From an uncultured Chthonomonas sp. (GTDB lineage: Bacteria > Armatimonadota > Chthonomonadetes > Chthonomonadales > Chthonomonadaceae): a stretch of 45,374 nt of DNA. Both the position numbers and the translations under genes were made by a program. This document shows positions 29,814 through 42,680 of this stretch, in pieces (positions within the stretch are counted from its first letter, which is position 1; every line of letters begins with the position of its first letter). The stretch covers positions 1 through 45,374 of the forward strand of contig CAIXIX010000367.1 of NCBI GenBank assembly GCA_903919615.1, written 5' to 3'. Under the pieces are notes generated by a model. It was given only the letters and a program-made list of their open reading frames with translations, was not told the origin of the DNA and made no database searches.

Positions 29814-30608
29814 CTATACCGCTTCATCGAACAGACCCGGAAATCGGCAGATGATGCGCTCTCGGAAACGGCGTTCCGCCCGAATCAACGCTGGCCCAAC
29901 ATGATTTTCTCGCAGACCCATGCCTGCTGCGATCTCCGGATAACTCTGATTCAAGAGAAACCTCCGTCGGAGTATCGTGGCATCGCGCCATAGCATCGTT
30001 GCGATAACGTGCCGAACAGCCCGCTTCTTCTCACTGTTCATCGCGGAGTAACCAATGCAGTCAATTTTGGGGTGTACCGCCGGGCGGATATCATGGCTCA
30101 GCCTTGGTGGCGAGGGCACGCTCTGCGCTGAACGTAAACTTGACGGATTTGCAGTTTCGGTTCTGCTCCAGTGCAACCGCATCCACTGGCTAGCAGCCCC
30201 GCGGACCGCTGAACCGACGTATGCAGTGAACCGCCCACGACCACTATCGTACCATTGCCGGATTCGGGCATTGTCGGCTTCGATGAGCTTCGCCATGACA
30301 TGGCGGCATAGTTGATCGCGATGATCCGAAACGAGCTGCGCATCTCGGCATAGCATAGAAATATAGGTCGTGAGCCTACGGTTGAACCAGATCGTCGCTG
30401 GTTGATCCCCGGATAGCACAAGCCCGATGAGCCGACGTTCTGACTCAGACGAACTGGCGTTTAAGTCCGGTGGCGTGCAGGATCGCAAGGTAACAGAATT
30501 GCTTGAGTTCACATCGAGCAGGCGCTGTTCCCAACGGCGACTTCGAACGTCGCTGCTTACAGGGTTGTAGTTCGCAAAGAGTGAGATCGGACGTGGAGAA
30601 TGTACCAT
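29814..30608 (-). CDS. ECF-type RNA polymerase sigma factor-like protein
   Basis: This 264-residue protein has a region-2-like stretch at ~75-145 (WFNRRLTTYISMLCRDAQL, DQLCRHVMAKLIEADN, RFTAYVGSAVRGAASQWMRL). After a variable linker, a region-4-like helix-turn-helix reads ILRRRFLLNQSYPEIAAGMG and LRENHVGPALIRAERRFRERI. It is more divergent than ordinary ECF factors and has a ~50-residue N-terminal extension. The assigned ATG has no ribosome site; a GTG about 37 codons in is an alternative. It is divergent from the BTAD-STAND regulator, with both starts within about 125 bp, so the two may control each other. Confidence 0.65.
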   Translation of the reverse strand: MVHSPRPISLFANYNPVSSDVRSRRWEQRLLDVNSSNSVTLRSCTPPDLNASSSESERRLIGLVLSGDQPATIWFNRRLTTYISMLCRDAQLVSDHRDQLCRHVMAKLIEADNARIRQWYDSGRGRFTAYVGSAVRGAASQWMRLHWSRTETANPSSLRSAQSVPSPPRLSHDIRPAVHPKIDCIGYSAMNSEKKRAVRHVIATMLWRDATILRRRFLLNQSYPEIAAGMGLRENHVGPALIRAERRFRERIICRFPGLFDEAV

Positions 30609-30661
30609 CAGGAGGTTGCCTTATTGCATCAGTCGTTATGAGGTATTGTATCTAGACAGGT

Positions 30662-30681
30662 GTTACAAAAAGCGTTACAAA
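30662..30681 (+). promoter_or_regulatory. Direct repeat GTTACAAA in the sigma/BTAD intergenic region
   Basis: Two perfect GTTACAAA octamers lie 12 bp apart (30662-30669 and 30674-30681), about 50-70 bp before the chosen start of the BTAD regulator. SARP/BTAD regulators typically bind direct repeats about one helical turn apart. This may be an autoregulatory site. Confidence 0.45.
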
Positions 30682-30732
30682 TATCGCGAATTTGCCGCTG
30701 AAGCAGAGTTTTTTTGTACGGAGACTTCCCAC

Positions 30733-33618
30733 TTGAGTCCCGACGACCCCTTCGCACCTACATTGCAGCTTACGCTTTTCGGCGCTCCTTCGTGCTGTAT
30801 TGCCGGGGCGACAGAGCAAGTCGACCTATCGCGTAAGGCAATCTATCTGCTGGCTGCGTTAGCGCTTTCGTCACGGGGCACATTAAGCCGCGCAAAGGCG
30901 GCGAATGATCTTTGGCCCGAAGCGGACACTAAGAACGGTCTTTTCTACCTCCGCCGCACTCTAACCGAGATACGCAACAAGCTCGGCTCCGCTTCGAACC
31001 TCTTGAGTCCTGCGGCAGCAGACCCGATTGTCTTGCAGCTCGACTCTGTTAATGTCGATGTACTGAGTTTTGATGGTGGAATTAACAGTGATGACCTGAA
31101 TAAGGTTCAATCCGCCATCGAGCTCTACACCGGGCATCTGCTTGCGCCTGCGGATGATCCATGGATACAAACGGAGCGCACCGTTCGCCGCACTTCGTGT
31201 CTCCGTGCCATTTCTCGATTGAGAGATGCCGCCCGGTCTGCTCATGAGATGACGCGCGTTGTCGAACTATCAAGGCTAGCAATCAAGGTTGACCCACTTC
31301 GCGAAAGTGAGCACCGAGAGCTAATCGAAGCGCTCGCAGACAGTGGCGCTGTAACAGAAGCTGTTCATGCCGCCAAGCAGCTTACGACGCTGTTGGCGAG
31401 AAGGCTGCATCGACTTCCAGAACCCGAAACCACAAAGCTGCTGGATCGACTGAACCATGTGCCGTGGTCGCCAAGGCCCGCGGAAAGAGCAGGCTCGACG
31501 GACCAGTCACGGGTTACTGGGAGCTATCCAAGCCCTATCAGCTCGCTTGTGGGCAGAGAAGCTGAGATCCAGCATGTGCGCTCAATGGTTCTGGTAAACC
31601 GCCTCGTAACCATTACAGCTGCGGGTGGATTCGGCAAAACGCGCCTGGCAACTCAAGTTGCGAGTACCCTTGAATCGGAGTTTAATGGCGGCATCTGGTT
31701 TTGCGACCTCGATTCCATCACAAATCCTGATCTGATACTTGGTCTGATATTGACACTCCTGGGGTCGAACGAGAATGCCGGACTATCCGCCATTCAGGAA
31801 ATCAGAAAGCGCCTTCAGGGTATTCAAACGCTACTAATATTTGACAATTGTGAACACCTTCACGCGGCCTGCGCAACTTTGGCTCAACGGCTACTTAACT
31901 CTGTATCCGGTCTGCGGATTCTGGCGACGAGCCGGCAGCCACTCAGCATCACGGGTGAAATCCTGTTTCCGCTATCGGCCCTGGCAGTACCGGTTGGTAC
32001 AGATCGAACAATCTCAAAGCTCACACTCGAGGCGCTCAAGACACGCTACGCCGCCGTCGAGCTGTTTATAACAAGAGCTCAGTCGCGAGGCACCCTAACT
32101 CTTACTGACGCGATGGCGCCTGCGATCTGCCGGATCTGTTCGAGGTTGGAGGGCAACGCTATGACGATTGAGCTTGCCGCAGCTCAGGCGTCAACGGTTG
32201 GACTACCAGATATCGATCGCAGTTTAGGGGATCTCTTCGATAGTCTGGTGAACGATAGCGATGTGCTTCCAGATCGTCAGCGGTCGGCGGATGCGCTAAT
32301 TGGCTGGAGTTTCAACCTGCTATCTGCGCAGGAGCAGGATGTGCTGGGTAGATTGACCGTATTCCGAGGAGGCTTGACGCTAGGAACTGCAATCGATGTG
32401 TGTACTCTTCCTGGCGAGTCGTCGGCCGAAATTCGCTCGTGTATCCTCCATCTCGCAGATAAGCGCCTTATACAGACAGTTGCGGGAGATAGTGGTGGCA
32501 TTACCTATCGAATGCTTGATCTCGTTCGCACATATATAAGTCGACATTCAATGTCGATCGACGCCGAAGGTGTAGCGGCATTGCGAACGGTGGAAAAGCA
32601 GTTTCTTGATAACTGCTATGAGTTTCTGGAAGTGCATTATATGGGGATCTACTCTAGCAAGCAGGCAGAAACACTCAATCAAATTGAAGCTTACATCGAC
32701 AATCTTCGCGCGGCGCTCCAGATAACTATCGACAGGCAAGACACGGTGCGCGCTATTGGGATTTTCAACTTGATATGGCGGTTCTGGTTTACAAGATGCT
32801 GGTTCACTGAAGCCACCGCGTGGATAAATCAGATATTGGAACTGCCTGGAGCGGCTGCTGCTGAGGGAATAACCCACGCATACGTTTTCATGGGCAACAT
32901 CGCGCACAATGCTGAGCATTTGGACGTCGCACGCACCTATTTCACTAAATATTTGGCGCGCGCGATTGAGATAAATGATGAGAGGCAGATCGCTCTCGCT
33001 CAGTCTTCACTTGCGATTGCGACTTTACAAAGTCACAACTACGAAGAATCCAAATCTCAATTTGAACTTGTATTACCAGTTTTACGCCGACTTAACGACA
33101 AGGCAAACACGGGACGCGTGCTCTCAAATCTTGGCGAGAGTTATTCGGGGCTCAGAGACTATGTGCAGGCCATTAAAGCGTACACCGAATGCATTCGGAT
33201 TCTTCGCGAAGTTGATCTGCCTTACGACGTGATGCACGCGCAAATAAACCTTGCGAATGTGTTCGTTGATTCGGGCGATGTCGCGAACAGTGTGAAGAAC
33301 TTCATGGAGGCGTTTCCTGTCGCAATGGAACTTCGCAGCAGCGCAGACATTCGTGATGGTATCCTGGTGGCAATGCTGATAGTAAGCGCTCGAGGGCATT
33401 TAGCGATGGCTGTACAGTTGCTGGGAATGCTTGCAACGTATGGCTACGCGTGCGGCTTGCCGAACAGTTCTGATTACGATGCACGATCCAGCAGTTTGCT
33501 TTCAGCCGCGAGTGTCTCGTTAGGCGATGCACTTAAGGAACATCTTGAACAGGGTTACCAGGTGGACCCTGCGGATATCCCACAAGTGACATTGCAACTG
33601 GTATCGAGTGTAAATTGA
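30733..33618 (+). CDS. BTAD/SARP-type regulator fused to NB-ARC ATPase and TPR-like repeats
   Basis: I place the start at TTG 30733, eight bases after GGAGA; the frame extends to a TTG at 30616 whose GGAGG is directly adjacent and unusable. The 961-residue product has an N-terminal OmpR-like winged helix (~10-105, with LSRKAIYLLAALALSSRGTL and YLRRTLTEIRNKLG). A BTAD domain follows at ~110-245. The STAND/NB-ARC ATPase begins at LVGREAEI (272), with Walker A AAGGFGKTRLA (~296) and Walker B LLIFDNCEHL (~366), and includes ILATSRQPL. The C-terminal ~350 residues are TPR-like helices. It is an ATP-dependent signal-responsive transcription activator. The TPR region probably senses the signal, which is unknown. 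Confidence 0.85.
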   Translation: MSPDDPFAPTLQLTLFGAPSCCIAGATEQVDLSRKAIYLLAALALSSRGTLSRAKAANDLWPEADTKNGLFYLRRTLTEIRNKLGSASNLLSPAAADPIVLQLDSVNVDVLSFDGGINSDDLNKVQSAIELYTGHLLAPADDPWIQTERTVRRTSCLRAISRLRDAARSAHEMTRVVELSRLAIKVDPLRESEHRELIEALADSGAVTEAVHAAKQLTTLLARRLHRLPEPETTKLLDRLNHVPWSPRPAERAGSTDQSRVTGSYPSPISSLVGREAEIQHVRSMVLVNRLVTITAAGGFGKTRLATQVASTLESEFNGGIWFCDLDSITNPDLILGLILTLLGSNENAGLSAIQEIRKRLQGIQTLLIFDNCEHLHAACATLAQRLLNSVSGLRILATSRQPLSITGEILFPLSALAVPVGTDRTISKLTLEALKTRYAAVELFITRAQSRGTLTLTDAMAPAICRICSRLEGNAMTIELAAAQASTVGLPDIDRSLGDLFDSLVNDSDVLPDRQRSADALIGWSFNLLSAQEQDVLGRLTVFRGGLTLGTAIDVCTLPGESSAEIRSCILHLADKRLIQTVAGDSGGITYRMLDLVRTYISRHSMSIDAEGVAALRTVEKQFLDNCYEFLEVHYMGIYSSKQAETLNQIEAYIDNLRAALQITIDRQDTVRAIGIFNLIWRFWFTRCWFTEATAWINQILELPGAAAAEGITHAYVFMGNIAHNAEHLDVARTYFTKYLARAIEINDERQIALAQSSLAIATLQSHNYEESKSQFELVLPVLRRLNDKANTGRVLSNLGESYSGLRDYVQAIKAYTECIRILREVDLPYDVMHAQINLANVFVDSGDVANSVKNFMEAFPVAMELRSSADIRDGILVAMLIVSARGHLAMAVQLLGMLATYGYACGLPNSSDYDARSSSLLSAASVSLGDALKEHLEQGYQVDPADIPQVTLQLVSSVN

Positions 33619-33764
33619 GTGTGATATGGTGGTGAATTGGATGATACGAGTTCGACCTCGCTAATTCAAAAATCTTAACACGTTAAACGTTCCGTTGAAG
33701 ATCATCAATTTTCCTTAGATTTTTCCAGGTTGGTTAGTAAGATCTGATAAGCTCGCTCCGTTTC

Positions 33765-33842: not shown

Positions 33843-34175
33843 ATGCGGACACTCACTTTTGCCTTCAGAAACACACGAAGCGGTCTTGCCGGTCGGCTCC
33901 ATACAGGAGTCTCTGCGTTACTGATTGCTGCAACTCTCTTATTTTTACTGCAATCGAGATCAAAAGCAGCGGTTGCTGGCGCTGAGATATACCTTGGCTC
34001 AGCGCAAACCGGATACACAGATGTTACCGCCTACATTGAGGTTGATAGCGATGGTAACGACTGGGTCGTAGGTTGGGACGGCCTTGCGCCATTCGAAATC
34101 GTGGTTGATCTAACTGAAGGTCACGTTATCGACCCAGGCGGTAAGGTAATTGGCGTTTGCGTGCCGGCTGAGTAG
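33843..34175 (+). CDS. Small exported protein
   Basis: This 110-residue protein has a good ribosome site (AATGGAG). A long signal segment (residues ~21-43, HTGVSALLIAATLLFLLQSR...AAVAGA) precedes a ~65-residue beta-rich domain (EIYLGSAQTGYTDVTAYIEV, NDWVVGWDGLAPFEIVVDLT). The single late Cys (VIGVCVPAE) could form an intermolecular disulphide. I recognise no family. It lies alone between the STAND regulator and a terminator, with a structured leader, and looks like a separately regulated envelope or secreted protein. Confidence 0.65.
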   Translation: MRTLTFAFRNTRSGLAGRLHTGVSALLIAATLLFLLQSRSKAAVAGAEIYLGSAQTGYTDVTAYIEVDSDGNDWVVGWDGLAPFEIVVDLTEGHVIDPGGKVIGVCVPAE

Positions 34176-34265: not shown

Positions 34266-35768
34266 TCAGTCTTTTATTGTATGCGTAAACTCGATCCCGA
34301 ATCGGAACCTATTGATTGCATCGACGCCACCCAGTACCTTCAATTCGTTAAAGTCCTTGAGGCGCCGCCGTAAGTAGACGTCGTATACATTATGTATAGC
34401 CTGCTGTATCGGCTTCTGGTCGGTGCCGAGCACCTGCGTGAAGCTCGCCTCGAGGCCAATCTGGCTGCGCCATCTGGTTAATGGGGCAGTACTCTTTGGG
34501 TCATAATCGGGAAAGCCATTTTGCCAGAACAGTGCAATACTAGGCAAAGTTCTTGGGCCAATCTTGCTCGTACCGCCATCCTGCGTGAATTGCAGCTGTT
34601 GAACATTGACGATTCCGCCTACAGCCCACTTGTCTCCGCTTCTTGCAAGTATTTTGCCGGCTGATAGACCATAAGCGTAAACGGAGCCAAACGTGTTAAC
34701 GGTGGTGAGTGCACTTGAAAATACGATGTGCAATCCCCCATGACTTGCTGAGGATGCACGAATTGCCTCATCTTTAAGCTGATAATAGGCGACCGCAAAA
34801 GCCGCACGTTCCGGCAAGGTCACTTCACAAGCGCATCGCGAATCAATCAGTTCAAACAGAAGTCTAAGGCTGCGCGCCCGTTCCCAGCGGCCTGGCGACA
34901 GATCGAGTTTTGAACCGATGGAAAACGCATTGGGATTGGTCTGCGACACCTGGGCGTCCATATCGTAGCCCAGAAATCCATCGCTATAGCTAACACGCTC
35001 GTAGTATCCCCAACCGCTGTTACTCCGTGCGCCAGCTGTGATACTTAGCGCCACTCCCTTAACTTGACGTGCCGGCGGGCTTAATCCTCGGGGACCGTTA
35101 TTATCGATCGGTTCCTCGGTGGGACCTTGCCTTTCAGCAGCTCGATTGAGGTCGGCGCCTAATGTCGCAAGTTCGGCTTGAATTCGCGCAAACTCGACTG
35201 GCTTTATGGAGTCAATCGATATTCCATTTCGTGTGAGCGCCGCGATAAGTAAATAGGCTCTCACGATAGGCTTAATAGTGACGTAAGCCGCTTTACCATC
35301 GTGCCCGAGGATCAACTGCTCACCCATCGTCAGCTTGTCAAAGATAGGCGAGAGGCGTTCAAGGCACTTCGTCGTAAGAACATCGTGATCTCCGATGATC
35401 TCCTTGACGAGCGCTTTGCCTCTATCAGGCAGCGCATTCTCGACCGCATTTTCGATCTGCGTTTGGATGTAAACAGATTGCTGTTTGTCTGAATACTTCC
35501 ACTTGTTCGATGTATTGCCTCCCGGATTGCAGAGGAATTTCAATCGGTCGCTTCCGTCTGGAACATAGCCTGTGCCACCGTCCAGAGATGCCGCCATCGG
35601 GCTATGGTCGTCAATAGCAAGCGCAGAAACCCCCGTCGCCATGCCGGAATTGGTTGCGGAATTTGCGACCGTCTGGGCGGGATTTTTCGTCTGCGCGGAC
35701 ACAGCTCCAGCGGCCAAGGCTTGAAACAGCATTGCTACAATCACGGTGGTTCGTTTTGGTGAAATCAA
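34266..35768 (-). CDS. Exported beta-rich protein B (paralogue of 35866-37134)
   Basis: I place the start at TTG 35768, eight bases after GGGAG. The frame is open to 35810, but that extension would contain one arm of a terminator-like hairpin. The 500-residue product has a signal peptide (MISPKRTTVIVAMLFQALAAGAVSA). After the cleavage site comes an AIDDHSPMAAS motif shared with its paralogue. A helical region follows. The C-terminal ~260 residues are beta-rich with aromatic strands (GVALSITAGARSN, YDMDAQVSQTNP, VNTFGSVYAYG, NVQQLQ, RWRSQIGLE, FRFGIEFTHT). It looks like an outer-membrane or surface protein of unknown family. It is last in a five-gene minus-strand cluster. Confidence 0.75.
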   Translation of the reverse strand: MISPKRTTVIVAMLFQALAAGAVSAQTKNPAQTVANSATNSGMATGVSALAIDDHSPMAASLDGGTGYVPDGSDRLKFLCNPGGNTSNKWKYSDKQQSVYIQTQIENAVENALPDRGKALVKEIIGDHDVLTTKCLERLSPIFDKLTMGEQLILGHDGKAAYVTIKPIVRAYLLIAALTRNGISIDSIKPVEFARIQAELATLGADLNRAAERQGPTEEPIDNNGPRGLSPPARQVKGVALSITAGARSNSGWGYYERVSYSDGFLGYDMDAQVSQTNPNAFSIGSKLDLSPGRWERARSLRLLFELIDSRCACEVTLPERAAFAVAYYQLKDEAIRASSASHGGLHIVFSSALTTVNTFGSVYAYGLSAGKILARSGDKWAVGGIVNVQQLQFTQDGGTSKIGPRTLPSIALFWQNGFPDYDPKSTAPLTRWRSQIGLEASFTQVLGTDQKPIQQAIHNVYDVYLRRRLKDFNELKVLGGVDAINRFRFGIEFTHTIKD

Positions 35769-35792
35769 TGTTTTAACTCCCAAACAAAATCG

Positions 35793-35828
35793 CCGGCCAC
35801 GAGGCGTCAAAATAACAATCGTGGCCGG
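35793..35828 (-). terminator. Hairpin between the two paralogous exported genes
   Basis: A perfect 10-bp stem (CCGGCCACGA / TCGTGGCCGG) with a 16-base loop is followed on the minus strand by CGATTTTGTTT. It lies 38 bp after the stop of protein A and just before the start of protein B, so it can act as a partial terminator or attenuator that lowers expression of B. Confidence 0.65.
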
Positions 35829-35865: not shown

Positions 35866-37134
35866 TCAGTTCCCGAATGTGTATCCGAATTCGAGCTGGA
35901 ATCGAACCACATTCGCTGCATCTGGGCCGGCAGAGAGTTTTAGCTCAGAGAACTTTGTTTTCGGCAGCCTGTATCGAATGAATCCATCATAGATGTCGTG
36001 AACATGATGAAAACCGGCTAATGAGCTGTATTCCAAGCCAATCTGGTATTTCCAGCGGTTAATTGATACGTTGCCATGGCTATCGACTGAGTTGACTTTA
36101 TCTTGCCAGAAGATGGAAGCGCCAGGCAAAAATACATTGGTGATGCCACCAAGTTCGCTATTCACCCGCAATTGCTGAACGTTCTCCTGAAAAGTAATAC
36201 CACCATGCCCAAGGGGGTTCTTAATCAGTGAGCTAGTTCCGATGCCGCTCGAATAAACAGAGCCAAACCCGTGTACGCTGGTGAAGTTTGAGCTAACGCT
36301 AACTCTCCACCCGTTGCTTAGAGCGACAACCGCCTTTTGGGCTTCCGACAAAAGATGCGATTTGGCCGCCAGGTATTCCAGCTTCTTGGTCGGCTCTGTT
36401 GGCGCCTTCGGGTGATCTCGAACAAACTCGACGTAAGTTTCAATGGCGAACATTCGCACACGCCGCAGTGGTGAAATATCGACCTTTGCACCTAAGGATA
36501 CAGAAGTAGGGTCGGATGAATAGGTTTGGAAATCGAAATCGGCTCCTGGAATGACCTCGCTCAGTTCGAGGCGCTGGTATAGTGACGTATTGTTGGTCGA
36601 CCTGGCGCCGCCCGTAAGCGTAACGGCATAGCCAACCGGTGCGGGGTTGAGGCTTTCTAGTTGCGCGTAGAGATTGACCAGCTCCTCGAAGTCGTCCTTT
36701 AGAGCCTTCCTCTGCTGCACTGAATACCTACTGTTTGGTGAGCCCTCCTCACGCATGGCAGTATTGTAGTGCTTTAGGAGCGTGCTGATTGTTGTACCAA
36801 TACTCTCAGCTGTAGAGCCTTTAGGCTGTTTCAGCAATGTCTGTTCAAGGTAGCCGGTCGAATCGTAATTATCAAATTTAATGCCGTTAAGTTCTAGGAG
36901 ATGCGCGTTGAACTTCCTCAACCGGTCTGCCGAAATCATAGTGGGCGCAAAGCCGCTTATCGACGTCGCCATTGGGCTTTTGTCGTCAATAGCTTGTGCT
37001 GCCGTCTGAACGAGCTGACCGCTGCTAGTGGCAGACAACGTGTCTGGCGGTTTGCCTGCGTGGGCGGAAATGCCGGTGAATAGTGCGATACAGCCGAAAC
37101 CGATGGCACGATGATGTGGTTCCATTGCTCTCAT
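35866..37134 (-). CDS. Exported beta-rich protein A (paralogue of 34266-35768)
   Basis: This 422-residue protein starts at ATG after GGGAGAT. The signal peptide (AIGFGCIALFTGISAHA) is followed by AIDDKSPMATSI, as in protein B. A helical domain (~60-160) precedes a beta-rich half. The matching blocks with B are LTGGARST, SLGAKVDISP, VHGFGSVYSSG, ENVQQLRV, SIFWQD, RWKYQIGLE, HHVHDIYDGFIRYRL, FSELKLSAGPDAANVVRF and a last strand QLEFGYTFGN. The C-terminal strand ending in an aromatic pattern is compatible with an outer-membrane barrel. Its start lies 76 bp downstream of the CHAT gene on the same strand, so it is probably part of that operon. Confidence 0.75.
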   Translation of the reverse strand: MRAMEPHHRAIGFGCIALFTGISAHAGKPPDTLSATSSGQLVQTAAQAIDDKSPMATSISGFAPTMISADRLRKFNAHLLELNGIKFDNYDSTGYLEQTLLKQPKGSTAESIGTTISTLLKHYNTAMREEGSPNSRYSVQQRKALKDDFEELVNLYAQLESLNPAPVGYAVTLTGGARSTNNTSLYQRLELSEVIPGADFDFQTYSSDPTSVSLGAKVDISPLRRVRMFAIETYVEFVRDHPKAPTEPTKKLEYLAAKSHLLSEAQKAVVALSNGWRVSVSSNFTSVHGFGSVYSSGIGTSSLIKNPLGHGGITFQENVQQLRVNSELGGITNVFLPGASIFWQDKVNSVDSHGNVSINRWKYQIGLEYSSLAGFHHVHDIYDGFIRYRLPKTKFSELKLSAGPDAANVVRFQLEFGYTFGN

Positions 37135-37210: not shown

Positions 37211-40200
37211 TTATGAGGCGGCCGAAAGGGTTTTGGCCTGTTCGATCGCTTCCCTTACCTTTACAACCCGCCAGCTATCTGCATCGTAAAATCGCAGATA
37301 GATCTCAATAGCTTCGTTATAATGGTCTAGTGCCGCTTCATACCTGCCGAGCGAGGTTTCCGCTTCACCAAGATAATAGCACGATGCTGCAACGTTAGGA
37401 TGATACTGGCCGAAAGTCTCAATATATATTTTTTCAGCCCTCTTATGCATATCAAGCGCCTGGTTGGCTCTGCCGTTTTTACAGTATAGGCGGCCGGCAT
37501 TGTTAAGCCGAATCGCCACCTTATTGTGCTGTTCTCCAAATAGTCTGCTATCGAGGCGCATAGCATGGAGGTAGTTCTCTATCGCATCATCGTATCGGTC
37601 CAGGGCCTCGAATGCTGCGCCTCGGTTGTTTACAGCGCTTGCGAAAGTCGCCCCAGACAGATCTGTTGCAGCCTTCATTGATTTATCATAGAGCTCAAGT
37701 GCGCGGAGCGGGTCTTTGCAATGCTTAATCACAAACCCCGCATCGTTGTAATAATCGGCAAGTTCATCGCTTTTCGCTGGCAAGGCTTTAACGGCAGCCG
37801 AGAGCGCATCTTCGCACATAGTCACTGCGAGATCCACCTGCTTCAATTCTACAGCAGCGATCGTCGCATAGTGCAGTTTAGCTCTTGCGCTCTGGAGACT
37901 GTCCTGACCATAGGCGATATTAGCGGCATTTATTGCCATGGAAAACTGGCGTTCCGCCTCATCGGCATCGGAGTGTTCGCGTTTGCATATCCCTGCCTCA
38001 ATCGCCAGAGAATAGAGCGACTCCCATTGTGTTTCCGAAATACAGCGCTCTTCGATGGCCTGCACATGATGAAGATCTTGCCGAACCTCTTTCCAGTCTG
38101 ATGTGCGATTCGCAATTTCCAGGCCGGTGCGCAGCGCGCTTGCCGCATCGATTGCGCACTTCCTCCGTCTATCCGAAGGCATCCGAAACCAAACAAACTC
38201 ACGGATTAGCTGGTGAATGGCAAATCGGCTGTCAGATTCTCGCGTCCCAAGCGAAAGCGTAGTGATGTCTGCAATCGCCTCAGATACTGCAATCTCATAC
38301 CGCTTGTCGGCGAGACCTGCTGCACGCAATAGAATATCTCGACGGATCCCTCTTGTTGCGAGGCATGTCCCCGTCTGCAGCAATCGTTTTGCGTTACGAT
38401 CCAGACGGGCGAAGGATATGGCCATGGTGTCGAACAGACTGCCTGTATGGCCGGTATGGTTCATGAACTGCTTACGAGCACGTGTTAGAGTAGCGACAAC
38501 ATCCTGTTCCAGCAGTTCTCTGTAGGCTCCGTACCCGATGCCAAGACGATCTGCGTGGTTGGCTGCAAGCGCCAGGGCGAGCGGCAGTGAGCCCATTCGA
38601 CTTACGATTGCCGATGCTGCATTCCGCTCGTCGGGTGAGCAGCCCTTACGCCGCATTACGAGGAAATCGACGGCGGTATCGTGCTCCAGGTCTGGCAGTT
38701 GAATTAGCTGGCAGAGGGATCGGACAATATCGGCATCGGTTGTTGTCGCAATAAAATGATGCCGGTCAGGCAGCCACTCGTGGGGTGGAGTTTCCAGCAT
38801 ATTGTCATAGATCAGCAGGGATCGCGCGTGTGATGAGTTGATCCTTTCTATGACCCGTTTTGCTCTCTCCGATACTCCTTCAGGCACACCAAAGTACTCT
38901 GCAATTTCCTCAAGGCTCTCTCGGATTTCTGTGAGATTGCGAGATCTAATCCAGTAAACGCCGCCTGGATAGAGGTGCTTACGTCGATGGCCATACTCAA
39001 TTGCCAGAAGCGTCTTGCCCATACCAGGCATTCCAACGATCGCGACTGCTGCGCGCGGATCCTGATTCAAAGTGGCATCTAGATCTTGCAGCGTCGCTTC
39101 GCGGCCAACGAACTCGTGCGCCTGCCTGAAAGGCAGATTGTTTGGTGTCTCAGCCGGGCTAAGATCAAATATCTCAGAATCGGCCGCATTTATGTAAAGT
39201 ACGGGGTTGCCCCAGTCGGCCCCGGTTCCTCGTATCGCCTGTCGGCCTTCCCAGAGCGCATCTTCTGCAGATTGCGAAAGGGTTAGCGCACTATAAAATG
39301 CGCGGGCAAACTGTGCGGCAATCGAATCCCGCCAGGGAAGTTGCATTGCAACTGCGGCGGTTATTTTCCCTGAAGCAGTCGCCTGTTGTGCGAATGGCGC
39401 GGTGTCACAAGCGGATAGGCAAAGCAGCCTGAATTCGGGGTAGTTGAGCATCTCAGATACCCGAGATACGCCCACCCTCTGGTGACCTGTGGCGCTCTTA
39501 AGGACGATTGCGGGTTCGCGGCCACTGCTGCTGCCGTGCCCAACGAAATGCACGATGTTGGGCCGCAGGTCCGACACGGCTTGAGCTAACGATTCTAGCG
39601 TTGCATCTGGCAACTCTCTGACCACGCTGCGACGGCATTCCGGCGAATCCTGGAGCACGCCAATGAGTGACCTTGCCTCTGCTCGCGCAGAGGCAAGCAT
39701 CGGAAATGCCGGTGTTGCAGGATTTGCCCAGACAACCAGGACACGAAGCTCACTTAAGCGAGGACGGCTTGCACTCGCAGGCGTTACACTGTCACCACTC
39801 TGTCTGAAAATGTGCAGAGCTGGTTCTAGAGATAAGTAATTTGCACTGCCGACGCTACCTGCGGACGTTAGGGATGCGCAGCAGAATTCCCAGGGAATAT
39901 CGGAGAGTATGGGATCGTTTGTCGTGATTCGAAGCCGCAGCCGTCGTTCATGTTTCAGTGGGATCTGACGAAGCTTGCCGTCGATTGCAGATAGCAACGG
40001 TGGAGGCAAGAGCATTTTAGAGACAGAATTGCCAATTGCCTGAAGATTTTCTGGGGTAGGCGGGCGCTCTATATGAGCCCTAAGAGGCTCGAGGATTTCA
40101 CGTTCAATTCGCGCAGGGTTATAATCGCAGCGCCAGCGATCACAGAGCGGCATTTGCTCCATAAACGAGAACGCCGCGCCCTCGACCTTTCCCGTAACAG

Positions 40201-40279
40201 GATCCATGTCGATTTTAACATGGAGATCGATCAGGCTATATTTTGTCGCCTCATCACTTGGTGGCGAATCTTCAGGCAC
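37211..40279 (-). CDS. CHAT protease / NB-ARC ATPase / TPR protein (NLR-like)
   Basis: This 1022-residue protein starts at GTG, nine bases after GGAG. An N-terminal domain (1-170) contains RLRLRITTNDPILSDIPWEF, typical before CHAT. The CHAT caspase-like protease (~175-370) has catalytic His248 in VHFVGHG and Cys291 in CLSACDT. The NB-ARC/STAND ATPase (~385-720) has FVGREATLQDL, Walker A GMPGMGKT (416-423) and Walker B SLLIYDN (487-493). The last ~300 residues are TPRs (for example ALDMHKRAEKIY, ALDHYNEAIEIY). The design matches NLR-like sensors: TPRs sense, the ATPase switches and CHAT cleaves. It lies 30 bp after the partner gene of a sigma factor, so its substrate may be that partner. Confidence 0.9.
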   Translation of the reverse strand: MPEDSPPSDEATKYSLIDLHVKIDMDPVTGKVEGAAFSFMEQMPLCDRWRCDYNPARIEREILEPLRAHIERPPTPENLQAIGNSVSKMLLPPPLLSAIDGKLRQIPLKHERRLRLRITTNDPILSDIPWEFCCASLTSAGSVGSANYLSLEPALHIFRQSGDSVTPASASRPRLSELRVLVVWANPATPAFPMLASARAEARSLIGVLQDSPECRRSVVRELPDATLESLAQAVSDLRPNIVHFVGHGSSSGREPAIVLKSATGHQRVGVSRVSEMLNYPEFRLLCLSACDTAPFAQQATASGKITAAVAMQLPWRDSIAAQFARAFYSALTLSQSAEDALWEGRQAIRGTGADWGNPVLYINAADSEIFDLSPAETPNNLPFRQAHEFVGREATLQDLDATLNQDPRAAVAIVGMPGMGKTLLAIEYGHRRKHLYPGGVYWIRSRNLTEIRESLEEIAEYFGVPEGVSERAKRVIERINSSHARSLLIYDNMLETPPHEWLPDRHHFIATTTDADIVRSLCQLIQLPDLEHDTAVDFLVMRRKGCSPDERNAASAIVSRMGSLPLALALAANHADRLGIGYGAYRELLEQDVVATLTRARKQFMNHTGHTGSLFDTMAISFARLDRNAKRLLQTGTCLATRGIRRDILLRAAGLADKRYEIAVSEAIADITTLSLGTRESDSRFAIHQLIREFVWFRMPSDRRRKCAIDAASALRTGLEIANRTSDWKEVRQDLHHVQAIEERCISETQWESLYSLAIEAGICKREHSDADEAERQFSMAINAANIAYGQDSLQSARAKLHYATIAAVELKQVDLAVTMCEDALSAAVKALPAKSDELADYYNDAGFVIKHCKDPLRALELYDKSMKAATDLSGATFASAVNNRGAAFEALDRYDDAIENYLHAMRLDSRLFGEQHNKVAIRLNNAGRLYCKNGRANQALDMHKRAEKIYIETFGQYHPNVAASCYYLGEAETSLGRYEAALDHYNEAIEIYLRFYDADSWRVVKVREAIEQAKTLSAAS

Positions 40280-40309
40280 CTGTTTATCTCCGAACGATTC
40301 TTACTCTTC

Positions 40310-41515
40310 TCACAACTGTCTTAACCGTGGACGCAATGATGTTACACCAGGTGCAGTCAACTCCAGATAACGTCCGCTTTCCCATCGCTTCATCTCGGAA
40401 ATCGGCCAGCAGCCGAGATGCTGTATCTGTGCCGAAGCAATTAATATGTCCATGCATAAATCAGATGTCGGGAATGCGGCCACTGTCGATTCAGGCAGTT
40501 CAATTCTCAGGTTTCTGTTGGAGCCCAACCGATCGGTGCGAACCATTAGCTCTATCGCTGGCAAGTTCAGCTCTCTGTCCGCAGAGTCAACTATAGGCGC
40601 CATAAGTTGTAGTTTTAGTTGCGATGTGAACGCCGGGTTGCTCGAGTCCGGTTCCTCTGAGAGTAGCGATATGGATATCCGATCTATCGGTAAGGGTCCA
40701 TCGATGATGCCGGTCATCTCTCCCAGGCGCGGAACATTCCACTCTGCGACTCTTCCTATGAGCGGAGCAATTCCTATTGGTAATGTTAACCCCTGTAATG
40801 TTAGTGATAGTTCTACCCGGCTGCCATCGTTCAGATCCAGATCCACGTTTTGAGAATCTGAGGGAGGAAAGACCTCGATCCTGCAATGGAGACGTCCTTC
40901 TTCATCTATATCGCACGCTCTAACAATGCACTCAATGTCGCGGCGCCCAGACATGACAATTTGTCTACTGGCTCCGCCACGAGCGGGCGACATGCTCGCG
41001 GTAAGCAGAGAAAGCCGTATCTGCTCCGTAATGGTTTCAATGGCTGCAGAAATGGCCTTTGGAAGCGGAGAGGTCCCAAGGGACATGATCGCCTGCCAAA
41101 TATCGAACGAGCGCGCCCCGCGCGCCATATCCCTAGAAAATGTAGGGGCGGTGAGATTGAGGTCAATGAGCTGAGCCTGGCTATCACAGTACTCCAGCCA
41201 TGCCTGGGCAAGCTGAGCCTCAAATGTGTCGCCATCTGAAATTTGTTGTACCTGTGCGAAGGGCATTGTTTTCAGAGATGCCAGCGTGCGCATGGCTTCG
41301 ATGAGGGATCTGCGTTCTGCGTTCTTTCGCAACAACGACTTTTCCATCAATCGCACAGATGGTTCGTCGAGGCCGCCAACGAGATAGAGCAGGATAGTTC
41401 GAGCATCTAGGGCGGGTACATAATGATCTGCGGGCCGCGAATTCGAAAGCAGACGAAAGACGGAATCGTCTTCAGTCAGTTGCGCAATAATCGAGCCGTA
41501 CTCGGCGTCAGGCAT
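40310..41515 (-). CDS. Candidate anti-sigma/partner protein, unknown family
   Basis: The start of this 401-residue protein overlaps the sigma-factor stop by 8 bp, so translation is coupled. Residues ~35-85 (ARTILLYLVGGLDEPSVRLM, then KNAERRSLIEAMRTL) resemble the helical N-terminus of anti-sigma factors (LLxYLxGxLxxxxxxxxExHL), without the zinc-binding Cys/His. No membrane helix is visible. The middle is helical, and the C-terminal ~220 residues are beta-rich, with two sandwich-like parts (RRDIECIVRACDIDEEGRLH, SRVELSLTLQGLTLPIG, LKLQLMAPIVDSADREL). I recognise no family. Position between sigma and CHAT protease suggests that it holds the sigma factor and is the protease substrate. That is a hypothesis. 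Confidence 0.65.
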   Translation of the reverse strand: MPDAEYGSIIAQLTEDDSVFRLLSNSRPADHYVPALDARTILLYLVGGLDEPSVRLMEKSLLRKNAERRSLIEAMRTLASLKTMPFAQVQQISDGDTFEAQLAQAWLEYCDSQAQLIDLNLTAPTFSRDMARGARSFDIWQAIMSLGTSPLPKAISAAIETITEQIRLSLLTASMSPARGGASRQIVMSGRRDIECIVRACDIDEEGRLHCRIEVFPPSDSQNVDLDLNDGSRVELSLTLQGLTLPIGIAPLIGRVAEWNVPRLGEMTGIIDGPLPIDRISISLLSEEPDSSNPAFTSQLKLQLMAPIVDSADRELNLPAIELMVRTDRLGSNRNLRIELPESTVAAFPTSDLCMDILIASAQIQHLGCWPISEMKRWESGRYLELTAPGVTSLRPRLRQL

Positions 41516-42680
41516 AAGCTGTCTCTCCGTAGTGCTTTTTCCATTGTTTCATCACTTTTTGTCTCGAACGGCTGCCGCTCAGCCAGGAGTTGATAGTGTC
41601 TCCACTTAGCCTGTATCCAGCGGTCGAGGCTGCCGGCCCAATCCGTTCTAGAATCTCCAATTGAGGCAACTCTTCGAGAGCGTGTTCGAACACCAGGCGT
41701 TCCCACACGTAACCCGCGCTAAGCACTTTGTCTCTATCATCGATCGGTGAAATGCGTTTCATGAGGTCCTGTGTAACAGGTACATAAGGCAGCATTTCCT
41801 TGATCTCGTTGAGCAATGTCAATATCTGAGCCGACGAATAGTTCCAACCCTTAATAATCTCGTGCTTAGAGTTCAACATATCCGTCCTGGACTCGCACAG
41901 GTAGTACGCCAGCATCGCAAGTACCACGATATCCCATGTGAGCCCATTTACAGCTATCTGATCGGGCGGATGCATATGAGCCTCCTTAATCAGGTTACTA
42001 ATGTCGCTGCCGGATTCAATCTCGATACCCAGTATCGCTTCAACGAGCGCCTTTGGATCGTGATAAAGGGTGTCGTATGCCAGAAGCCTGAGCGTACCCA
42101 CATCTGCAATCCATGCTTGAATTACCTCCTTCGTTATAGAGGGCTCGTTCTCCAACGGATTTTGGCTCAGAATCAATGCTGTCTCATCCGCAGAGAAACC
42201 ATCCAAGAGGCACAGTCTAGCTGCAAGCAGGCGTCGATTGTAACCCTCTTGCGATATCTCTGCGTCCAAACCCAGGAGCGACGTGTTTACTACATGTTTC
42301 AGCAACTCTGCCAGGAACAACAACTCAACATTGTCGGCCACTTCGTGCGGAGCAGTACCAGGCTCTGCTTCGTCGATGTTGTCAGCGTAACAATTTTTAT
42401 CTCGTCTGAGCATATCAACCCGGCAATTGTCTGCCATCCTGTAAAGAAGTTTTGTACAGGCGGCCACACTATCGCAAACGAGCCTGCTGCGCATCACCCA
42501 TAGACGTATAAATACCTGCTGAGCCAGGTCCTCAATCACATCAGCCGTTGGCCCATGTGGTTTACTGCGTAAGTAAGCCTTTAACCGACCCGAATAGGCG
42601 GATCGAATTTCATGAATTGCGCCTTCGGCAACTCTTTCATCTGGTGATGTTAGCTTCCGCCAGGAATCAAGGCCGTCCAA
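41508..42680 (-). CDS. Extended sigma-70/ECF-type sigma factor
   Basis: This 390-residue protein starts at TTG after GGAG. Region 2 is clear at ~20-100: SAYSGRLKAYLRSK, DVIEDLAQQVFIRLWVMRSR, CTKLLYRMADNCRVDMLRRD. A candidate region 4 is weaker (RLCLLDGFSADETALILSQ, ~170-190). A ~200-residue C-terminal extension follows, ending in another HTH-like segment (RLSGDTINSWLSGSRSRQKV). The size is twice that of a plain ECF factor, so the extension may be a sensing or binding domain, as in ECF families with C-terminal extensions. It leads a five-gene minus-strand cluster. A GATCT-TTAC-AGATC palindrome lies 17 bp upstream. Confidence 0.75.
   Translation of the reverse strand: MDGLDSWRKLTSPDERVAEGAIHEIRSAYSGRLKAYLRSKPHGPTADVIEDLAQQVFIRLWVMRSRLVCDSVAACTKLLYRMADNCRVDMLRRDKNCYADNIDEAEPGTAPHEVADNVELLFLAELLKHVVNTSLLGLDAEISQEGYNRRLLAARLCLLDGFSADETALILSQNPLENEPSITKEVIQAWIADVGTLRLLAYDTLYHDPKALVEAILGIEIESGSDISNLIKEAHMHPPDQIAVNGLTWDIVVLAMLAYYLCESRTDMLNSKHEIIKGWNYSSAQILTLLNEIKEMLPYVPVTQDLMKRISPIDDRDKVLSAGYVWERLVFEHALEELPQLEILERIGPAASTAGYRLSGDTINSWLSGSRSRQKVMKQWKKHYGETAYA

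Follow-up and report, generated by a model that had tools for sequence, protein, structure and literature searches.

Can a CHAT protease control a dedicated sigma factor outside of a CRISPR system? This question is raised by three adjoining genes in a 45,374-nucleotide contig from an uncultured Chthonomonas sp. of the phylum Armatimonadota (GenBank assembly GCA_903919615.1, contig CAIXIX010000367.1, positions 1 to 45,374), and "the window" hereafter refers to this whole stretch. The three genes form one minus-strand cluster consisting of an open reading frame (ORF) for an extracytoplasmic function (ECF)-type sigma factor (41508..42680, TTG start, 390 aa), an ORF for a predicted anti-sigma factor, which we refer to as the partner (40310..41515, ATG start, 401 aa), and an ORF for a CHAT-NB-ARC-TPR protein (37211..40279, GTG start, 1022 aa). 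The sigma and partner ORFs overlap by 8 bp, and a gap of 30 bp separates the partner from the CHAT gene. An earlier note on this DNA had described the same order, strand, overlap, and gap, as well as an intact CHAT dyad (His248/Cys291) and Walker A motif (GMPGMGKT); the ORF coordinates bear out the former, and the Pfam match together with the homologue alignment bears out the latter. We consider it probable that these genes constitute a CRISPR-independent proteolytic sigma switch, in which the CHAT protease would cut the anti-sigma partner and the freed sigma factor would turn on a few neighboring genes. Computation supplies the order of the genes and its conservation, the homology of domains and profiles, the intact catalytic residues, the fusions, the conserved linker, and the association of the motif with genes; from these we infer sigma-partner binding, cleavage, sensing, release, promoter use, and a biological role.

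Conservation of the module across Armatimonadota

The partner is single-copy in the genome of the window and is present in three further genomes among the 17 examined from its family. All four of these genomes encode the sigma factor, the partner, the CHAT-NB-ARC-TPR protein, and an exported protein in identical order on one strand, with 19-30% protein identity between the window and its three relatives. With the family-specific C-terminal half of the sigma factor, which is the trait defining its subfamily, as the query, we searched 291 Armatimonadota genomes and found the subfamily in 25 of them, at a total of 30 loci when neighborhoods and split contigs are counted together. The partner accompanies the sigma gene in 22/30 loci and a CHAT gene is adjacent in 19, of which 17 keep the order seen in the window (the window itself, L006, L007, L008, L069-L076, L082, L084, L087, L092, and L093) and two have the CHAT gene in another orientation (L077 and L086). 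Seven loci lack a CHAT gene, and here the sigma gene is followed by an NB-ARC/TPR protein (L079, L080, L081, L085, L088, L090, and L091). One further locus is divided between contigs (L068 and L121), and another is truncated where its contig stops (L083). Since both order and strand recur in the three relatives from the family and across the phylum, the arrangement is not a matter of chance, and the genome search that had been suggested along with the original observation recovered a conserved sigma-partner-CHAT neighborhood.

In a reverse search with the partner, 24 full-length copies were identified, and just two of these (L122 and L123) have neither the sigma nor the CHAT gene nearby. A contig scan using the partner alone returned no matches, and an alignment of four diverse sigmas gave no usable pattern, but closer sigmas were productive. 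The named relatives carry the taxon labels Chthonomonadia, Armatimonadetes, Abditibacteriales, and Fimbriimonas, and a further one is the unplaced 'Bacterium HR16'. At L074 the partner is frameshifted, and two CHAT-NB-ARC proteins stand in tandem behind this partner and a single sigma gene (L074:2517-9094). A neighbor of a CHAT gene at L103 was set aside after it was identified as a dehydrogenase.

Domains of the sigma factor and the CHAT protein

The sole Pfam match of the sigma factor is Sigma70_r2 (E 2.3e-4), with region 2 at residues ~28-95. The predicted model has a pLDDT (predicted local distance difference test) of 89.8, its region 2 superimposes upon that of E. coli sigmaE (4lup) with a template modeling (TM) score of 0.83 and a root-mean-square deviation of 2.2 A, and the sigma profile matched ECF sigmas among PDB profiles with a best E of 1.8e-8. 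The protein therefore has the region 2 fold of an ECF sigma factor. Neither Pfam nor NCBIfam recognized a region 4. The subfamily-defining half (residues 135-390) ends instead in a segment (GLWxRLVFQY...LPHxDI...LNxWLSNGRL, helices 324-389) that looks like a helix-turn-helix.

In the CHAT-NB-ARC-TPR protein, the CHAT protease domain (39227..40039, minus strand, residues 81-351) was assigned by Pfam at E 1.5e-23, with 84 bits versus a cut-off of 24 (PF12770). Its dyad, His248 (codon 39536-39538) and Cys291 (codon 39407-39409), is invariant in 20/20 homologues, as is expected of a CHAT protease. The NB-ARC STAND ATPase domain (38564..39097, minus strand, residues 395-572) follows at E 4.6e-7, with 29.8 bits versus a cut-off of 23.5; its Walker A Lys422 is kept in 19/20 homologues, and the domain has profile similarity to the Apaf-1 NB-ARC (E 6.8e-12). 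The C-terminal TPR array, which is the presumed sensor, consists of kinesin-light-chain-like repeats (37301..38011, minus strand) recognized by Pfam and by profile, with TPR_12 matching residues 880-952 at E 2e-25 and the TPR region extending to residue 993.

The partner and its anti-sigma domain

The partner has no Pfam family match. In its predicted model, the N-terminal domain (residues about 38-110) is helical and confidently placed, with pLDDT mostly >90, and is followed by further helices, a low-confidence segment (174-182), and a beta-rich C-terminal domain (184-399). The N-terminus had been suspected of being a zinc-less anti-sigma domain, and several profile comparisons agree. Residues 36-110 (41186..41410, minus strand) aligned by hhalign with the canonical zf-HC2 anti-sigma domains of the phylum at a probability of 81.6 (P 1.1e-5), versus at most 3.7 for 15 control slices. 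A hidden Markov model (HMM) of the domain matched two zinc anti-sigma proteins, one in L126 (E 6e-8), where an ECF gene is its neighbor, and one in L125 (E 1.5e-9). It also matched a single chain that unites an entire ECF sigma factor with such a domain (L124, E 3e-10). One partner also matched the NCBIfam anti-sigmaE model (E 0.006). The N-terminal domain of the partner is thus homologous to the zinc-binding anti-sigma (ZAS)/zf-HC2 domain, and the HxxxCxxC zinc motif is not present in it; by profile evidence, it is a zinc-less anti-sigma domain. The L124 chain (L124:7299-8540) joins its complete ECF sigma factor to a domain that is likewise zinc-less.

The same domain is fused ahead of NB-ARC/TPR in three of the CHAT-less loci (L079, L080, and L081, with E values of 4e-7, 4e-5, and 8e-4, respectively), and these fusions rank next after all true partners among 1587 ORFs. 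We claim only these three, since the matches at the STAND N-termini of L085, L088, L090, and L091 fall below significance.

A conserved arginine in the partner linker

The low-confidence segment between the partner halves (40970..40996, minus strand, residues 174-182, pLDDT <50) contains Arg179 (codon 40979-40981), which is conserved in 20/22 sigma-linked partners sharing 14-22% identity with the partner in the window. Aside from the start Met, it is the only highly conserved residue of the partner to fall in a low-confidence segment, and it is among the most conserved of the entire partner. The surrounding motif reads P-x-Phi-[AS]-x-x-R-[GSA]. We predict that CHAT cuts the partner after Arg179, and a near-invariant Arg within a predicted disordered linker offers new support for cleavage. 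Cleavage after Arg is a general trait of clan CD proteases, separase and clostripain among them. Separate partners with an Arg linker were confined to genomes encoding a CHAT protein of this protein family, and the [AS]-x-x-R-[GSA] motif is found in neither of the orphan partners (L122 and L123). The two partners with Ala in place of Arg179 (L070 and L072) keep most of the remaining motif, and Ser replaces Gln313, a candidate specificity-loop residue, in no CHAT proteins but those of these two loci. This coincidence of R179 loss with Q313S in the sequences is suggestive only.

A promoter-like motif and putative output genes

A dyad search upstream of the module genes yielded GTTAGAT-N15-CGTTT. 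With a spacing of 15, there were 26 matches at ≤1 mismatch over 540 kb, whereas the count never exceeded 4 for the remaining spacings between 5 and 30; seven of the 26 lie inside sigma genes and were rejected as coding coincidences (Arg-Cys...Pro-Phe codons). Within two mismatches, the motif precedes 10/17 genes of a superfamily that we call c3/c5, versus 8/238 other genes (p 2.6e-9), a count that is partly circular because the motif was discovered in the DNA ahead of c3/c5 genes. Since c3/c5 served as the training set, a second group, c9, is the cleaner test, and 3/4 of its genes have the motif versus the same 8/238 (p 2.8e-4). The motif also precedes 4/26 sigma genes, and its column 8, which played no part in the search, holds only C or T (15/15). 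The 4.5 Mb of one genome (G073) contain just two exact matches, both within one sigma locus, and 2/4 one-mismatch matches are at or near its second sigma locus.

The c3/c5 superfamily has no Pfam match, shares a conserved C-terminal K-x-Y, and in family f15 nearly always neighbors the sigma module, whether or not that module includes CHAT (L070, L072, L077, L078, L080-L082, and L084-L092; for example, L070:14022-14873). All 15 strong c3/c5 matches in the phylum (E < 1e-30) fall within these sigma loci, and c3/c5 is probably the main output or a further partner of the module. The c9 genes encode a small protein, are divergent from sigma, and have the promoter-like motif in front (L006:8050-8526, L068:1445-2044, L071:11098-11571, and L073:11095-11688; families f1, f5, and f19). 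Near a CHAT-less sigma module of G073, a gene for a Tle1-like phospholipase (L080:16875-17963, Pfam E 4e-79) has the motif 49 bp upstream.

Within the window, a candidate sigma target site, GTAAGATC-N14-CGTTT (33737..33763, plus strand), differs from GTTAGAT-N15-CGTTT by one mismatch. Downstream of it is a predicted target gene encoding a small exported protein of 110 aa (33843..34175, plus strand). A homologue occupies the same place in L007 (39% identity, E 2e-12), where a like site with two mismatches (L007:2242) precedes the gene and the intergenic DNA has otherwise diverged. A match upstream of the window's own sigma gene was weak (two mismatches, spacing 14) and was rejected. The CHAT gene is adjoined by a gene for an exported protein (35866..37134, minus strand, 422 aa), followed by its paralogue (34266..35810, minus strand, 514 aa), and the two proteins are 33% identical. 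The former is a conserved operon member in two families (f1 and f19). Farther away are an AfsR/SARP-like regulator with BTAD, NB-ARC, and TPR (30616-33618), a relative of which also flanks L007, and a second ECF-like sigma gene divergent from it (29814-30608). The genome also encodes a second CHAT protein (G000:C614, L105:8976-11816) near an ordinary ECF-like sigma gene. No Rfam families or tRNAs were found in the window.

Proposed mechanism and alternatives

At rest, the anti-sigma domain of the partner would hold the ECF sigma factor, as suggested by profile homology, gene overlap, and fusions. From the known behavior of such domains, the TPR array would read a signal and the NB-ARC ATPase would switch, rendering CHAT active. 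CHAT would then cut the partner after Arg179, parting the anti-sigma half from the beta-rich half. The anti-sigma half would thereby be weakened or eliminated, for which housekeeping proteolysis, as has been suggested for Csx30 and CalpT, is a possible route. The freed sigma factor would transcribe a small, mostly local gene set via GTTAGAT-N15-CGTTT, comprising exported or unknown neighbors and, at some loci, its own gene. Where CHAT is absent, the anti-sigma domain would be part of the sensor ATPase, so the same release could occur by shape change alone.

Several observations weigh against this proposal. L078 and L089 carry sigma and partner with no CHAT gene nearby, their CHAT genes of the same family being elsewhere in those genomes, and the R179/Q313 coincidence is a single evolutionary event. 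The beta-rich domain of the partner matches no known fold. Besides the coding coincidences and circularity mentioned above, the motif is not enriched in the window's genome, with 23 matches versus 44 for a reversed control, and we claim no large regulon because genome-wide counts do not exceed this control.

The seven CHAT-less loci, at least three of them with an anti-sigma domain fused to the NB-ARC/TPR protein, indicate that proteolysis is not essential for coupling. The STAND protein might accordingly bind the partner and free sigma by shape change, with CHAT having other substrates. We regard this as unlikely, given the invariant dyad and the confinement of Arg-linker partners to genomes with this CHAT family, both orphans lacking the motif. 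Less likely still, the partner could be a co-activator or scaffold linked to CHAT by shared regulation only; most of the protein is indeed a domain with no known relative, but the controlled N-terminal homology, the sigma fusion at L124, the STAND fusions, and the overlap with the sigma gene all argue for an anti-sigma factor. Compatible with the proteolytic switch is a role in envelope stress, development, or cell-cell recognition rather than anti-phage defense, to which we assign an even chance. Most genes that travel with the module or bear its motif encode exported proteins or proteins without a known family, making a stress or envelope response as likely as defense; the module had no match in phage, plasmid, and viral-contig collections, and in PADLOC the partner was unmatched and the CHAT protein matched only weakly (SAVED_CHAT, E 2e-6 over the CHAT part). 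Conversely, the patchy spread (25/291 genomes) and the STAND and CHAT parts fit conflict systems, and one motif-bearing gene encodes a Tle1-like phospholipase.

Relation to known systems

Csx30 of type III-E systems binds CASP-sigma through its N-terminal domain and is cleaved within a flexible loop, at 427-429 (PMC10028731). The module resembles this Craspase system (Cas7-11, Csx29 TPR-CHAT, Csx30, and CASP-sigma) in its CHAT protease, an anti-sigma substrate with a sigma-binding N-terminal domain, a flexible-loop cut, an ECF sigma factor, and local target promoters, all as predicted here. However, it has no Cas7-11 or CRISPR RNA, its predicted cut follows Arg in a linker between the partner halves, and its protease is reversed, with CHAT (81-351) ahead of NB-ARC (395-572) and TPR (to 993), whereas Csx29 has N-terminal TPR and C-terminal CHAT. 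We detected no sequence kinship between the partner and Csx30, the partner profile matching no solved chain, nor any solved fold at E ≤ 0.001, in a library whose Csx30 entries are unverified. As the earlier note had stated, there is no CRISPR component at the locus: CRISPR-like direct repeats were absent from the window and three related loci, and no Cas models were matched among the proteins scanned. Type III RAMP genes of ordinary size occur on another contig of the genome.

CalpL/CalpT/CalpS, a type III CRISPR Lon protease system, is the Lon analogue of Craspase (PMC11417357). There too an anti-sigma factor is the substrate of a protease activated by a ligand, and the piece still bound to sigma is left for degradation, but the protease is a Lon-SAVED protein triggered by cyclic tetra-adenylate (cA4), without CHAT or NB-ARC; Pfam found no Lon or SAVED domain in the window protease. 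The module works like Craspase and CalpL/T/S in our proposal, yet it fails defining features of each and is not a Craspase member. Proteolysis of membrane-anchored anti-sigma factors (RseA/DegS, RsiW) likewise involves an ECF sigma factor released by a protease, although the partner has no membrane anchor and a STAND-CHAT protein replaces the envelope proteases. NLR-like STAND ATPases (Apaf-1 NB-ARC, AfsR) similarly join an NB-ARC switch and repeat sensor to an effector; in the window this effector is a CHAT protease to which an anti-sigma partner is genetically linked. In the same phylum, L104:2329-6117 has an ECF sigma factor, a zinc anti-sigma-like protein, and CHAT in one row, but with a canonical zinc motif, an ordinary ECF of another subfamily, and CHAT at the C-terminal end; this row represents a looser sigma/anti-sigma/CHAT theme.

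Among the literature searched, a CHAT domain, an anti-sigma factor, and an ECF sigma factor were linked only in the type III-E paper; many subscription papers fell outside this coverage, so the lack of a match is not proof of novelty. We place about equal weight for and against the broader notion of an undescribed class of Armatimonadota signaling, in which an Apaf-1-like CHAT protease would be the CRISPR-free, dedicated activator of an ECF sigma factor whose zinc-less anti-sigma partner it would cleave after a single conserved Arg, a protease-free sister lineage would have the NLR-like sensor fused to the anti-sigma domain, and both would act via the GTTAGAT-N15-CGTTT promoter class. In that literature, a CRISPR system is the sole setting in which a CHAT protease has been connected with sigma release. 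If our proposal is true, it would suggest that sigma switches of this kind occur independently of CRISPR, which may have recruited them, and the module would provide a simple system in which STAND activation reads out as transcription.

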